Assembly (NCBI GenBank): GCA_023388355.1
Contig: JAEWGI010000025.1
Span: 1 to 25,665 of the forward strand
Source of the DNA: Pseudomonadota bacterium
GTDB lineage: Bacteria > Pseudomonadota > Gammaproteobacteria > Xanthomonadales > Xanthomonadaceae
Length of the DNA: 25,665 nt
Direction: 5' to 3'
The notes below the pieces were generated by a model, which worked only from the letters and a program-made list of their open reading frames with translations, made no database searches and was not told where the DNA came from. Below, piece by piece: positions 1,607 to 22,740 of this stretch. Numbering within the stretch: position 1 is the stretch's first letter; every line of letters starts with the position of its first letter. The position numbers and the translations under genes are program-made.

Positions 1607-2886
1607 GCGAACGCGAGAACACGACAACCAGCCAGGCCGCACTGTCCGACGCCGAACTCGGAATCCAGTGGTCGTTCCGGACCACCGAGAACGCGGTGAT
1701 CCTGCTCGACCGCGAGCGCCGCCTGCTGTGCGCCAACCCTTCGGCCCAGTCGCTGGCCGAACGCGCGCTGCCCGGCCAGGGCCCTGCCGAACTGCTTGAA
1801 CTGCTGCCCGCCGAGGCCTGGCAGCAGGCCGGTGCCAGCGGCCGCTGGGCCGGCGAGGTCAGCATGCCCTCGGGCGTGGTGCTGAAGATCGTGGTCCGCA
1901 ACGGCCGCGGCGGCGGCGAGGACGTCGACCTCAACCTCGTCATCTTCGAGGACATCACCCAGCGCAAGGCCCGCCAGGCCGAACTGCAGCAGCGCCACGA
2001 CGAACTCCAGGCCGCGCACCGGCGCCTGGCCGGCACCCAGGAGCAGCTGCTGCAGTCGGAGAAGATGGCCTCGATCGGCCTGCTCGCCGCCGGCGTCGCG
2101 CACGAGATCAACAACCCGATCGGCTACGTGCACTCCAACCTGGGCACGCTGCAGGAATACGTCGGCGCGCTGTTCGCGCTGATCGAACACCAGGACGCGG
2201 CGCTGCAGTCGGCCGAACCCGACGCGCGCGACGAGATCCGCGCCCAGCGCGAGCGCCTGGACATCGACTTCATCCTCGGCGACCTGCCCAAGCTGCTGTC
2301 CGAATCGCGCGAGGGCATCGAGCGCGTGACCAGGATCGTGCAGGACCTCAAGGAGTTCTCCTACGTCGGCCGCGGCGACGCGATGCGCCCGTCGGACCTG
2401 CACAAGGGCCTGGAATCGACCCTCAACATCGTCTGGAACGACCTCAAGTACAAGGTCCGGGTGGAGAAGCACTACGGCGAACTGCCGCTGGTCGAATGCC
2501 ACCTGTCGGAGATCAACCAGGTGCTGGTGAACCTGCTGATCAACGCCGGCCAGGCGATCGAGAACCGCGGCAGCATCGTCATCGCCACCGGTGCCGAGGA
2601 CGGCGAGGCCTGGATCGGCATCACCGACAGCGGCTGCGGCATCCCGGCCGACGCGCTGCCGCGCATCTTCGACCCCTTCTACACCAGCAAGCCGATCGGC
2701 CGCGGCACCGGCCTGGGCCTGGCGATCGCCTACAGCATCGTGTCCAAGCACCACGGCCGGATCGAAGTCCAGAGCGAACAGGGCGTGGGCAGCACGTTCC
2801 GCGTGGTGCTGCCGGTGGTACAGCCCGCAACGGCCGAAGCGCAGGGCGGATCGCCCGGCGCCGACCCCGCACCCAGCCCCAAATAG
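1603..2886 (+). CDS. Soluble PAS-domain sensor histidine kinase
   Basis: This 427-residue protein has no membrane segment, so it senses in the cytoplasm. Residues 20-120 form a PAS-like domain (TTENAVILLDRERRLLCANP, ending at FEDITQRK). A coiled coil (about 120-155) leads to the H-box AHEINNP with phospho-acceptor His167. The ATPase part has the N-box NQVLVNLLINAGQAI (305-319), the G1 box DSGCGIP (342-348) and the G2 box GTGLGLAIAYSI (368-379). It belongs to the flgM-flgN transcript through a 4-nt overlap. The response regulator at 3466-5205 is convergent, and the two probably form a pair. Xanthomonas has a comparable kinase/GGDEF-EAL-REC pair (RavA or RavS with RavR). Equivalence with that pair is my inference from domain order and flagellar context. 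Confidence 0.88.
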   Translation: MSERENTTTSQAALSDAELGIQWSFRTTENAVILLDRERRLLCANPSAQSLAERALPGQGPAELLELLPAEAWQQAGASGRWAGEVSMPSGVVLKIVVRNGRGGGEDVDLNLVIFEDITQRKARQAELQQRHDELQAAHRRLAGTQEQLLQSEKMASIGLLAAGVAHEINNPIGYVHSNLGTLQEYVGALFALIEHQDAALQSAEPDARDEIRAQRERLDIDFILGDLPKLLSESREGIERVTRIVQDLKEFSYVGRGDAMRPSDLHKGLESTLNIVWNDLKYKVRVEKHYGELPLVECHLSEINQVLVNLLINAGQAIENRGSIVIATGAEDGEAWIGITDSGCGIPADALPRIFDPFYTSKPIGRGTGLGLAIAYSIVSKHHGRIEVQSEQGVGSTFRVVLPVVQPATAEAQGGSPGADPAPSPK

Positions 2887-3440
2887 GCTGGGGTGAGCAA
2901 AGCGAACCCCAGCGCCCATCGTGCCGCAGGGCGACGTTGGGGTTCGCTTCGCTCACCCCAACCTATGCTGTGACCCGACGTCGGGTTCGCAGGCCCATCG
3001 AACCGTGCGCCCGGCAAAGGCGAAGCTCCCAGCTCCACATAGGCTGGGGTAAGCGAAGCGCACCCCAGCGGCCAATCGCGCCGCAGGGCGGCGTTGGGGT
3101 TCGCGTCGCTCACCCCAACCTATGGTGTGACCCGACGTCGGGTTCGCAGGCTCGCCGAACCGTGCGCCCGGCAAAGGCGAAGCTCCCAACTCCACATAGG
3201 CTGGGGTAAGCGAAGCGAACCCCAGCGCCCAATCGCGCCGCAGGGCGCCGTTGGGGTTCGCTTCGCTCACCCCAACCTATGCTGTGACCCGACGTCGGGT
3301 TTGCAGGCTCGCCGAACCATGCGCCCCGGCAAAGGCGAAGCTCCCAGCTCCACATAGGCTGGGGTAAGCGAAGCGCACCCCAGCGGCCAGTCATGCGCAG
3401 GGCGCCGTTGGGGTTCGCTTCGCTACCCCAACCCATGCGC
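2883..3440. repeat. Tandem REP array, four units of about 157 bp
   Basis: Units begin at ATAGGCTGGGG at 2883, 3039, 3196 and 3354. Each unit has a forward palindrome (ATAGGCTGGGGT.AGC..AGCG.ACCCCAGCG), a spacer of about 25 bp, then an inverted palindrome (GTTGGGGTTCGC..CGCTCACCCCAACC). The first three units continue with a perfect 14-bp palindrome ACCCGACGTCGGGT and an arm ending CGAAGCTCCCA.CTCCAC. The fourth is truncated in that arm. The array fills the space between the convergent kinase and GGDEF/EAL genes and contains no credible gene. Open frames crossing it (reading WGEQSEPQRP-type peptides) are artefacts of the repeats. The core matches the palindromes beside the RAYT gene at 19564. 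Confidence 0.9.
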
Positions 3441-12592: not shown

Positions 12593-14002
<1,410 letters not shown>

Positions 14003-14032
14003 CCTGGCTGGCGGACCCCGCAACGAGAAAAG

Positions 14033-14178
14033 GTTCTTCTCCCGCGGGGGCGTTGCGACGAGGCGGATCTGCTCCCTCCCCCGCTTGCGGGGGAAGGGCC
14101 AAAGGAGGTTCTTCTCCCATTCGCGAAGACGTTCGTTGGTGACAGCGGGGCGGATCTGCTCCCTCCCCCGCTTGCGGG
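14033..14178. repeat. Two diverged direct repeats ending in CTCCCTCCCCCGCTTGCGGG
   Basis: Two segments of about 70 bp each open with AGGTTCTTCTCCC and end with GGCGGATCTGCTCCC followed by TCCCCCGCTTGCGGGGG. The terminal part is a short hairpin (CCCCCGCTTGCGGGGG). The two copies differ in their middle. This is the second repeat family of the window; its hairpin is found again as one module of the arrays at 16.0-16.7 kb and 22.4-22.6 kb. No gene lies between ntrC and the sodC-like gene (14003-14671). Confidence 0.75.
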
Positions 14179-14185
14179 GGGTGAG

Positions 14186-14222
14186 GATGGTCCGTTTGCG
14201 CGGCACTGCCGCGCGGACCATC
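14186..14222. repeat. Long hairpin GATGGTCC..GGACCATC
   Basis: Left arm GATGGTCC plus GCGCGGCA pairs with right arm TGCCGCGC plus GGACCATC, giving a 16-bp stem with a four-base bulge (GTTT) and a one-base apex. No T-run follows, so intrinsic termination is uncertain. It sits 184 bp after ntrC and could protect or terminate the ntrBC transcript. Confidence 0.6.
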
Positions 14223-14237
14223 CGAACGCCCGGCGCG

Positions 14238-14492
14238 CTGCGCCGGGTCGGACGGGTTGGGGTGGGGGCACAGGTCGCCGCGTATCCTGCACACGCGCCT
14301 GCGGCGCGCGCCCCCATCCCAGCCTTCCCCCGCACGCGGGGGAAGGAGCAAAAGGAGGTTTTTCTCCCATACGCGGGGACGCTGCGCCGGGCCGGACGGG
14401 TTGGGGTGGGGGCAGCAGGTCGCCGCGCACCTCACGCGCGCCTGCGGCGCGCGCCCCCATCCCAACCTTCCCCCGCATGCGGGGGAAGGAGC
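14238..14492. repeat. Tandem duplication, 144-bp unit with inverted arms
   Basis: Copies begin CTGCGCCGGG at 14238 and 14382. Each has GTTGGGGTGGGGGC on the left and GCCCCCATCCCAGCC or GCCCCCATCCCAACC on the right as inverted arms around a GC-rich spacer (GCGCGCCTGCGGCGCGC), then CTTCCCCCGCA.GCGGGGGAA. The second copy stops after this hairpin. The same arms recur in the arrays near 16.2, 16.4, 16.7 and 22.5 kb, with a different spacer. Confidence 0.85.
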
Positions 14493-14579
14493 CAGAAACC
14501 TACGCTTCCGCACCGGATCCACCGCCCCGCACACTCACGACAACCTGCATCGCACCAAACCGCGCGCCGTCAATCCGCC

Positions 14580-16015: not shown

Positions 16016-17003
16016 CATAGGTTGGGGTGAGCAAAGCGAACCCCAACGTCCGCCATGCGGCACGGGCCGGCTCGCGGGCCTGCGGCAAGAACCGGTGCCG
16101 GGGTTCGCTTTGCTCACCCCAGCCTATTCGCTGTTCTGCGCCCTCCTCCGCGAAGCGGGGGAGGGCCGGGGTGGGGGCAGCCCGGACGCGATTGGCTGGA
16201 TTTCCCGTCGTGCTCCGGCCCCCATCCCAACCCTTCCCCCGGCGGGGAAAGGGCTCAAGGTCGCATAGGTTGGGGTGAGCAAAGCGAACCCCAACGTTCG
16301 CCATGCGGCAAGGGCCGGCTGGAGAGCCTGCGGCAAGGACCGGTGCTGGGGTTCGCTTTGCTCACCCCAGCCTATTCACTGTTCTGCGCCCTCCTCCGCG
16401 AAGCGGGGGAGGGCCGGGGTGGGGGCAACCCGGGCGCGATTGGCTGGATTTTCGTCGTGCTCCGGCCCCCATCCCAACCCTTCCCCCGGCGGGGAAAGGG
16501 CTCAAGTCGCATAGGTTGGGGTGAGCAAAGCGAACCCCAACGTCCGCCATGTGGCAAGGACCGGTGCTGGGGTTCGCTTCGCTCACCCCAGCCTATTCGC
16601 TGTTCTGCTCCCTCCTCCGCGAAGCGGCGGAGGGCGGGGGTGGGTGTAGCTCCAGGCGCGATTGGGCTGGATTTCCGTCGTGCTCCGGCCCCCATCCCAA
16701 CCCTTCCCCCGGCGGGGAAAGGGCTCAAGCCGCATAGGTTGGGGTGAGCAAAGCGAACCCCAACGTCCGCCATGTGGCACGGGTCGGCTGGAGAGCCTGC
16801 GGCAAGAACCGGTGCTGGGGTTCGCTTTGCTTACCCCAGCCTATTCGCTTACCTCTACCGGTTCGCTAGCCGGCTACAGCAGTCGCATAGATTGGGGTGA
16901 GCAAAGCGAACCCCAACGTTCGCCATGCGGCACGGGCCGGCTGGCGGGCCTGCGGCAAGGACCGGTGCTGGGGTTCGCTTTGCTCACCCCAGCCTATTCG
17001 CGT
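16016..17003. repeat. Composite REP array, five units
   Basis: Units start with CATAGGTTGG (CATAGATTGG in the last) at 16016, 16264, 16510, 16733 and 16886. The first module of each, about 100-120 bp, is a REP pair: GTTGGGGTGAGCAAAGCGAA with CCCCAACG, a spacer, then inverted GGGGTTCGCTT.GCTCACCCC ending AGCCTATTCG. In units 1-3 a second module of about 120 bp follows: CCCTCCTCCGCGAAGCGG.. with GGGGTGGG on the left and CCCCCATCCCAACCCTTCCC on the right. Unit 2 is the cleanest at 246 bp. Units 4 and 5 carry only the first module plus a short tail. The array fills the convergent gap between sodC and the 304-residue gene; 15928-16015 holds a partial second module. No gene is credible here. Confidence 0.9.
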
Positions 17004-19392: not shown

Positions 19393-19468
19393 GTTGGGGT
19401 TAGCAGCGCTAACCCCAACCAATTGCATAGGGGTTGTATAGGTTGGGGTGAGCGCAGCGAACCCCAAC
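19393..19468. repeat. REP pair upstream of the RAYT gene
   Basis: Two palindromes lie 18 bp apart. The first (19393-19419) is a perfect 12-bp inverted repeat GTTGGGGTTAGC with loop AGC. The second (about 19438-19468) reads ATAGGTTGGGGTGAGCGCAG with CGAACCCCAAC. The same two, in the same order and orientation and with similar spacing, occur after the gene at 20151-20231. Confidence 0.9.
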
Positions 19469-19563
19469 ACCCCGATCTCCCCCGACAAGCCACCCGCGGC
19501 ACCTTGCCACCGCCCCCCGGATCGGCAAGGATCGACGACTCGCACCCACATGGACGTGGACGG

Positions 19564-20094
19564 ATGCGCTATCGACGCTGCCGCCAGCCGGGCGGCACCT
19601 TCTTCTTCACGGTCAACCTGGCCGATCGCGCCTCGCGCCTGCTGGTCGAGCGCGTCCACGCGCTGCGCGAAAGCGTGCGCCTGGTGAAGCACCGCCATGC
19701 ATTCGACATCGTCGGCTGGGTCGTCCTGCCCGACCACCTGCACGCGATGTGGACGCTGCCCGATGGCGATCACGACAACGCGATGCGCTGGATGCTCATC
19801 AAGTCCGCGTTCTCGCGCCGGATCGAGGCCGGCGAGCCGACAGGCCGGAGCCGCCGGCGCAAGGGCGAGCGTGGCATCTGGCAGCGACGGTTCTGGGAGC
19901 ACCTGATCCTGGACGAGGACGACCTGCAGCGGCATCTCGACTACATCCACATCAACCCGGTCAGGCACGGCCTCGTGGCACGTGCGTCGGCCTGGCCGTA
20001 CAGCTCGATCCACCGCGACATCCGCGCCGGCGACCTTCCCGCAGACTGGGCCGCGCCGATGGCGGGACAGACGGGTGCATGGGGGGAGCGTTGA
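19564..20094 (+). CDS. REP-associated tyrosine transposase (RAYT, TnpA-REP, Y1 family)
   Basis: This 176-residue protein belongs to the single-strand HUH nucleases that recognise and cut REP palindromes. It opens with MRYRRCRQPGGTFFFTVNLA, a typical RAYT start (arginine-rich, then FFFT). The HUH motif is PDHLHAMW with His58 and His60. The catalytic tyrosine is Tyr127 in YIHINPVRHGLV, followed by a closing WPYSSIHRD. All key residues are present and the frame is intact, so it may be active. The ATG at 19564 is chosen because the family starts here; a longer in-frame start upstream lies in REP DNA. It is flanked on both sides by REP pairs of the same family that fills other intergenic regions in this window. 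Confidence 0.93.
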   Translation: MRYRRCRQPGGTFFFTVNLADRASRLLVERVHALRESVRLVKHRHAFDIVGWVVLPDHLHAMWTLPDGDHDNAMRWMLIKSAFSRRIEAGEPTGRSRRRKGERGIWQRRFWEHLILDEDDLQRHLDYIHINPVRHGLVARASAWPYSSIHRDIRAGDLPADWAAPMAGQTGAWGER

Positions 20095-20110
20095 GGGGGA
20101 CGGTGGGGCG

Positions 20111-20146
20111 GGTGGTGAGGTGGGTGGTGAGGTGGGTGGTGAGGTG
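20111..20146. repeat. Three perfect 12-bp tandem repeats
   Basis: GGTGGTGAGGTG is repeated three times without mismatch, directly after the RAYT stop codon and before the first downstream REP. It is purine-rich and probably arose by slippage. Confidence 0.9.
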
Positions 20147-20150
20147 GCGC

Positions 20151-20292
20151 GTTGGGGTTAGCTGCGCTCACCCCAACCTATGTCGTGACGCGTATTCGGA
20201 TAGGTTGGGGTGAGCGCAGCGAACCCCAACGTCGTCACCCCAAGCGCCCGGGCACAGGCCATAGGTTGGGGTGAGCGAAGCGAACCCCAACG
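20151..20292. repeat. REP cluster downstream of the RAYT gene, three palindromes
   Basis: The first (20151-20177) is GTTGGGGTTAGCTGCGCTCA followed by CCCCAAC. The second (20199-20231) and third (20260-20292) read ATAGGTTGGGGTGAGCG with CAGCGAACCCC or AAGCGAACCCC, then AACG. The first two match the upstream pair at 19393-19468. The third has the GAAGCG centre seen in the arrays elsewhere. The third ends 100 bp before the uup start. Confidence 0.9.
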
Positions 20293-22330: not shown

Positions 22331-22740
22331 CATAGGTTGGGGTGAGCAAAGCGAACCCCAACGTTCGCCACGCGGCAAGGGCCGGCTGGCGGACCTGCGG
22401 CAAGTAGCCGGTGCTGGGGTTCGCTTCGCTCACCCCAGCCTATTGGCCGCTCTGCTCCCTCCTCCGCGAAGCGGGGGGGCTGGGGTGGGGGCTGCCTCAG
22501 GCGCGATTGGGCTGGATTTCCGTTGTGCTCCGCCCCCCATCCCAGCCCTTCCCCCGGTGGGGGAAGGGCTCAAGCGCGGCGTCCGGTTCTGCTCCCTCTC
22601 CCGCTCACGGGGACGGCTCGGGCCGCATAGGTTGGGGTGAGCAAAGCGAACTCCAACGTTCGCCACGCGGCAAGGGCCGGCTGGCGGGCCTGCGGCAAGG
22701 ACCGGTGCTGGGGTTCGCTTTGCTCACCCCAGCCTATTGG
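22331..22740. repeat. Composite REP array, two units, between uup and hemY
   Basis: REP pairs occupy 22331-22444 and 22626-22740. Each has CATAGGTTGGGGTGAGCAAA with GCGAAC.CCAACG, the spacer TTCGCCACGCGGCAAGGGCC, and the inverted partner ending AGCCTATTGG. Between them lies the second module (CTCCCTCCTCCGCGAAGCGG.. and CCCCCCATCCCAGCCCTTCC). Spacer and order are nearly the same as in the array at 16016-17003, 5 kb away. A partial second module ends just before hemY (22741-22783). The genes on both sides converge here. No gene is seen in 22286-22783. Confidence 0.9.

Follow-up and report, generated by a model that had tools for sequence, protein, structure and literature searches.

We describe a REPtron, that is, a RAYT (REP-associated tyrosine transposase) between inverted REP pairs plus one extra REP, in which every intact REP head reads ATAG and the transposase carries leucine at the position equivalent to R104 of E. 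coli TnpAREP. The locus lies in a window of 25,665 nucleotides, by which we mean the whole stretch of DNA analysed. It resembles known REPtrons in gene, layout and fold; its head is a variant. We give a probability of roughly three in four to the reading in which this RAYT, likely an enzyme that nicks single-stranded REP hairpins and spreads them, recognises ATAG instead of GTAG by means of the leucine. The novelty lies in the ATAG head and the residue that goes with it; the system as such is known, and this is a natural variant. The features of the window are as follows, REP coordinates including the 4-nt head.

2883..3438: array of four REP pairs with outward heads, palindromes 22-23 bp apart, one GTT arm and one GCT arm; head ATAG in 7/8, the last REP being degenerate
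16017..16997: array of five REP pairs with outward heads, palindromes 24 or 49 bp apart; all 10 heads ATAG
19393..19423, minus strand: outer upstream REP, a perfect palindrome; head ATTG (damaged), centre GCT
19438..19468, plus strand: inner upstream REP; head ATAG, centre GCA
19393..19468: the two upstream REPs as a pair, with inward heads 14 bp apart and a fold into a single hairpin (z -5.6)
19564..20094, plus strand: RAYT gene, 176 aa, by sequence and fold matches to NF047646 and 4er8
20151..20181, minus strand: inner downstream REP; head ATAG, centre GCA; has GCTAAC in common with the outer upstream REP
20200..20230, plus strand: second downstream REP, with the same sequence as 19438-19468; head ATAG, centre GCA
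20151..20230: these two downstream REPs as a pair, with inward heads 18 bp apart and a fold into a single hairpin (z -12.3)
20261..20291, plus strand: extra REP, with the array-type centre GAA and head ATAG
22332..22737: array of two REP pairs with outward heads, palindromes 49-50 bp apart; all 4 heads ATAG

The window gives a single RAYT match, the gene at 19564-20094. Its product scores 194 bits against the NCBIfam equivalog profile NF047646 (cut-off 80) and 22.5 against Pfam Y1_Tnp, slightly below the cut-off of 23. By sequence, its sole convincing solved relative is E. coli TnpAREP (4er8, E=1.4e-43), which is also the top fold match (E=1.7e-19) of an AlphaFold2 model with a pLDDT of 86.8; family and fold are thus those of the E. 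coli REPtron (TnpAREP with its y and z2 REPs). The first-pass annotation had called His58, His60 and Tyr127 intact, and rightly so: the reading frame is intact and the HUH histidines and the tyrosine are invariant across a 34-protein alignment, as is T16, which we assign as the N-terminal Thr of RAYTs. The NP(L/V)(R/K)xG motif reads NPVRHG, and alignment with 4er8 places Leu116 at the position of R104. With the IS200/IS605 elements IS608 and ISDra2 the window RAYT shares the Y1 HUH fold (TM about 0.43-0.48 to the model), and the REPs recall the hairpins with a 5' guide tetranucleotide described for that family in a passage of PMC6006769; unlike these elements, however, the protein falls in the RAYT subgroup by profile and the REPs are present in many copies outside the element.

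The ATAG head is found on 25 of the 27 REPs in the window, beside the gene as well as in the arrays, and GTAG on none; the two others read ATTG and a degenerate sequence. The heads therefore do not conform to GT(A/G)G, which is how passages of PMC2817692, PMC3686654 and PMC6006769 define the REP head, the automatic search in the last of these having required GTAG or GTGG. According to the relevant sections of PMC8266576, TnpAREP cuts single-stranded REP at CT and GTAG tolerates no substitution in the E. coli system, the latter being a point that we count against recognition of ATAG. A search of the full-text literature for RAYT and ATAG as whole words in one paper, which heads inside longer sequences would escape, found none among the papers listed, and no head variant is announced in the titles and abstract starts of the REP literature, a scope that lies mostly outside subscription papers. 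The difference from the E. coli REPtron is thus twofold, ATAG for GTAG in the head and Leu for R104 in the protein. The same contrast is met closer by, in a Rhodanobacter locus (L006) and a Nevskia locus (L003) whose RAYTs are 65-69% identical to that of the window and whose REPs have the same stem, GGTTGGGGTGAGC..GCGAACCCCAAC, the Rhodanobacter REPs having even the same GCA centre; in both, however, the head is GTAG and the head-contact position holds Arg.

A section of PMC6006769 names W94, Q95, E100, H101 and R104 of the E. coli protein among those in contact with the GTAG guide, and the corresponding text of PMC8266576 lists R104 with the GTAG-interacting residues, the base being unnamed there. 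Our lead came from the window and the loci up to L160, in which the first ATAG loci were all without Arg at the R104 position. After it, 93 more loci (L161-L253) were fetched, 23 of them the stronger matches of one search and 70 others, and 70 enter the count. To be counted, a locus needed two or more REPs with matching arms no farther than 400 bp away, the first head base being left free and the majority base taken. Palindromes were called by a rule of our own (five outer pairs, and pairing over 75% or more of the stem), which misses REPs with weaker stems or odd heads, the ATTG copy of the window included. From 203 RAYT hits, 198 of them distinct, 68 without a cognate REP pair were left out, giving 130 loci. 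Fifteen of the 130 have ATAG heads, a proportion that gives no estimate of the frequency of ATAG because the searches began with the window protein and near relatives occur.

At the R104 position, none of the 15 ATAG loci has Arg or Lys (Val in seven, Leu in four, Thr in two, Met and Glu in one each), against 111 of the 115 GTAG loci (Arg in 108, Lys in three, Gln in two, Ala and Gly in one each). Fisher's test of head against Arg/Lys (15/0/4/111) gives p=2.3e-16. The 115 include two ties counted as GTAG, both with Arg: L018 (one GTAG, one ATAG) and L112 (one GTAG, one TTAG); with these omitted (15/0/4/109), p=2.9e-16. Since the residue sets of ATAG and GTAG loci do not overlap, the R104 column carries the full label entropy (mutual information 0.516 of 0.516 bits); the next-best column with at most 30% gaps reaches 0.259 bits, and none separates the heads as well. 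When only the 70 later loci are considered, all 11 ATAG loci were without Arg/Lys, and the GTAG loci had Arg in 58 cases and Gln in one. Among 28 genomes with at least two labelled loci, eight hold both heads, and in 8/8 each RAYT fits its own REPs, which argues against a genome-wide base bias. Near-equal stems also occur with different heads, GTAGGTTGGGGTGAGC together with Arg at L001, L003 and L006, and ATAGGTTGGGGTGAGC together with Val or Thr at L141, L142, L156 and L161.

The rule has exceptions. Four GTAG loci lack Arg/Lys (L002 with Ala, L009 and L191 with Gln, L022 with Gly), so that loss of the residue is not sufficient, and among Arg loci L233 has one ATAG among three REPs, besides the one-to-one case of L018. 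A look at single REPs, as palindromes, in the 68 loci left out gave GTAG with Arg 17 times, ATAG with Thr twice, ATAG with Arg once (L039), TTAG with Arg once, and CTAG at one locus whose residue was unreadable; L137, with Leu, has a single ATAG REP.

Some further observations were made on the ATAG loci. The equivalent of H101 is changed to Arg (FWER or FER for FWEH) in six of the 15 ATAG RAYTs (L170, L189, L194, L200, L208 and L226). At L156 (G355 C5) the RAYT is split into two frames, with ATAG REPs still on both sides. L258 (G310 C5:837800-840100) has REPs of the window stem, two with ATAG and one with a damaged head, around a RAYT remnant that matches query residues 125-164 at 68% identity; it is apparently a decayed REPtron, and the same genome also has an open RAYT of the ATAG type (L141).

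Shared ancestry could in principle produce such a pattern, head and residue marking the same few clades as a by-product of lineage with no physical link between them. In trees built without the R104 column and its neighbours, six head changes are needed (five to six over 200 bootstrap trees), but only three are forced when strongly supported branches alone are kept, and an independent-pairs sign test found three pairs, about two concordant and one undecided (median p 0.5), too few for power. These two results are what speaks for a by-product. On the other side, likelihood tests of correlated evolution, each on a single tree, gave LR 39.1 (p=6.5e-8) for 130 rows and LR 32.6 (p=1.4e-6) for 67 rows; the R104 column has twice the information of the next best; R104 is a published GTAG-contact residue (in the sections of PMC6006769 and PMC8266576 cited above); five different residues occur among the ATAG loci; and all eight two-head genomes agree. 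We thus consider a mere by-product of lineage improbable, and regard the association of head and residue in these alignments as strong, though with only three head changes forced by well-supported branches. The fitted rates allow a change of head only after the loss of Arg/Lys, a hint that the protein residue changed before the head; the four GTAG loci without Arg/Lys fit this order.

We now turn to the REPs that bracket the gene. As had been claimed at first, the RAYT has cognate REPs on both sides, five in total, in the order (-)(+) upstream and (-)(+)(+) downstream, and the extra palindrome at 20261-20291 does have a different centre. The further claim of one palindrome pair repeated on both sides in the same order, orientation and spacing (about 18-20 bp) stands for the order and for the second palindromes, which are identical; the first palindromes differ (GCT/ATTG upstream, GCA/ATAG downstream), and each pair is better described as two opposed REPs with heads inward and gaps of 14 and 18 bp. 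An exact 31-base word is common to the two sides of the RAYT, the maximum in 500 two-base-block shuffles being 13, and none of 200 shuffles was as stable as either pair folded as a single hairpin. The T in GCTAAC occurs in the outer upstream and the inner downstream REPs and is absent from the other 25 REPs of the window. Being private to the first palindromes of both sides, it supports a duplication of the pair, and together with the identical 31-mers it suggests that the two pairs are related in this way. That the duplication was direct, as first proposed, is less clear-cut: a direct one scores 84 bits against 70 for an inverted one, a modest advantage, because each pair is itself an inverted repeat. 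Between the stop codon of the RAYT and the downstream pair, at 20110-20147, a GGTGGTGAGGTGG-like unit is also repeated three times in tandem.

The bracket is genuine but ordinary, and its layout is a known one for REPtrons. The inner REPs at 19438-19468 (+) and 20151-20181 (-) enclose the gene in the REP(+)-gene-REP(-) arrangement of a classical REPtron, which is the commonest inner layout in our survey (61/130 loci) and which the text of Nunvar et al. 2010 (PMC2817692) describes for the RAYTs studied there, one third of them with alternating REP arrays; REP monomers or dimers flanking RAYT genes are shown in Di Nocera et al. 2013 (PMC3733652). The E. coli REPtron likewise has REPs of alternating orientation on both sides and a long imperfect stem with a central mismatch; it differs in that the window pairs directly beside the gene have inward heads. 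Such inward-facing pairs would likely be junctions that arose from the joining or duplication of REP units. At least two REPs on both sides are found at 36 of the 130 loci. At 21, the adjacent pair on one side has the same order as that on the other, heads being outward in 14 and inward in seven; several different REP stems are represented. By this rule the window falls outside the 21, owing to the damage in its outer upstream head; judged by eye, its bracket is of the heads-inward kind.

It had also been proposed that the gene and its two pairs make up a discrete unit, mobile or fixed as one piece. We searched for the locus in 395 genomes of one family, taken from a larger group, and fetched 30 loci; five contain both neighbour genes, a thiolase and an ABC-F gene (named from their translations), and the other 25 are without the second neighbour inside the fetched flank. 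In these five relatives, whose second neighbour is 83-94% identical, neither a RAYT nor a REP of the window stem lies between the two genes, and the intergenic regions measure 62, 107, 239, 857 and 996 bp against 1108 bp in the window. The absence of the block at this site and the private T and identical 31-mers of the two pairs are in keeping with a unit. However, among the five relatives we saw no empty site with exactly one pair; two of their intergenic regions (857 and 996 bp) contain other DNA, and by eye the spacers are too diverged for the ends of the block to be placed; the window is without a second RAYT; and same-pair brackets accompany several different stems at the 21 loci mentioned. 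Both pairs without the gene were not seen in the five relatives either. In these five relatives, then, the proposal finds support in the absence of the block alone, and we regard movement as a whole unit as unlikely. Among 52 genomes from the genus to which the closest relative belongs, 26 have a RAYT match, the best being 60-61% identical.

Over its 25.7 kb the window has 27 REPs, all from one stem family, five at the gene and 22 in the three arrays. The arrays consist of 11 doublets with heads outward, opposite to the gene-side pairs, and with palindromes either 22-24 or 49-50 bp apart; the pair 16514/16566, inside the long-spacer array, has a short spacer. The doublets are hetero-pairs of a GTT-type and a GCT-type arm, with the exception of 16890, which begins ATT. 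As inverted REP doublets in two spacer-length classes, they resemble the REPINs described in passages of Bertels and Rainey 2011 (PMC3116915); the gene-side doublets differ, their heads pointing inward (TT dimers, in terms used in PMC3733652) and those of the arrays outward (HH). The exact stem is found in only eight of 395 family genomes (11 matches in all), so that the REP expansion of the window is not common to those relatives, and in one of the nine genomes behind the fetched RAYT loci, two of these nine being also among the 395. Elsewhere in the window, reading frames called by program on both strands of 13900-14550 contain recurring motifs such as PSPACGGRLGWG, a hint of another family of intergenic repeats, unrelated to the REPs.

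The GCGCAG centre had been thought limited to gene-proximal copies. Within the window this is borne out, since the GCA centre is present in three of the five gene-side REPs and in none of the 22 array REPs. REPs with an exact GCGCAG centre are found in six other genomes, one copy each, and adjoin a RAYT in only two of them (G005 and G272; away from a RAYT in G073, G046, G292 and G238), so that the centre is no reliable mark of the gene and we rejected it as a marker of RAYT proximity. Three of the isolated copies, L254, L256 and L257 (in G073, G292 and G238), are lone ATAG-headed REPs for which a span of 3 kb gave no significant RAYT match, and are possible relics of lost REPtrons; the fourth, L255 (G046), is headed GTAG.

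The difference in centres bears on another explanation, according to which the gene of the window is an inactive relic, the arrays were spread by some other RAYT, and the gene-side GCA REPs stand outside the active population with AAA and GAA centres. This account would fit the arrays, whose pairs are turned the other way and mix GTT and GCT arms, and also the damaged outer upstream head. Yet the reading frame is intact with its catalytic residues, and gene-side and array REPs have in common both their stem and the rare ATAG head, and we find the relic account doubtful. We favour a RAYT, or its recent ancestor, that would itself have spread the arrays.

In the mechanism that we propose, the window RAYT likely recognises ATAG over GTAG because the equivalent of Arg104 is Leu. 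The side chain at this position would contact the first head base directly, Arg or Lys selecting G, and a short or aliphatic residue, or Thr, accepting A. The guide pairing for CT proposed in a section of PMC8266576 uses tag bases 3 and 4; as these are unchanged in ATAG, the cut site is predicted to remain CT. Judged from the alignments, this is likely a natural specificity switch by one residue. More broadly, we think it probable, with slightly less confidence than for the window itself, that ATAG REPtrons have been overlooked by GT(A/G)G searches, that the R104 residue sets the first base, Arg/Lys going with G and Val, Leu, Thr or Met with A, and that several switches took place in which loss of Arg preceded the change of head.

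The protein alone would point to genomes in which REP populations may be overlooked by GT(A/G)G searches. Arg/Lys is absent in 55 of 119 readable RAYT proteins (among the 121 best matches listed, query included), and such prediction is not exact, four GTAG loci being also without Arg/Lys. A residue that tracks the head over 130 loci offers a cheap and direct test of a specificity change in a domesticated transposase, and bears on how RAYTs and REPs remain matched while both change.
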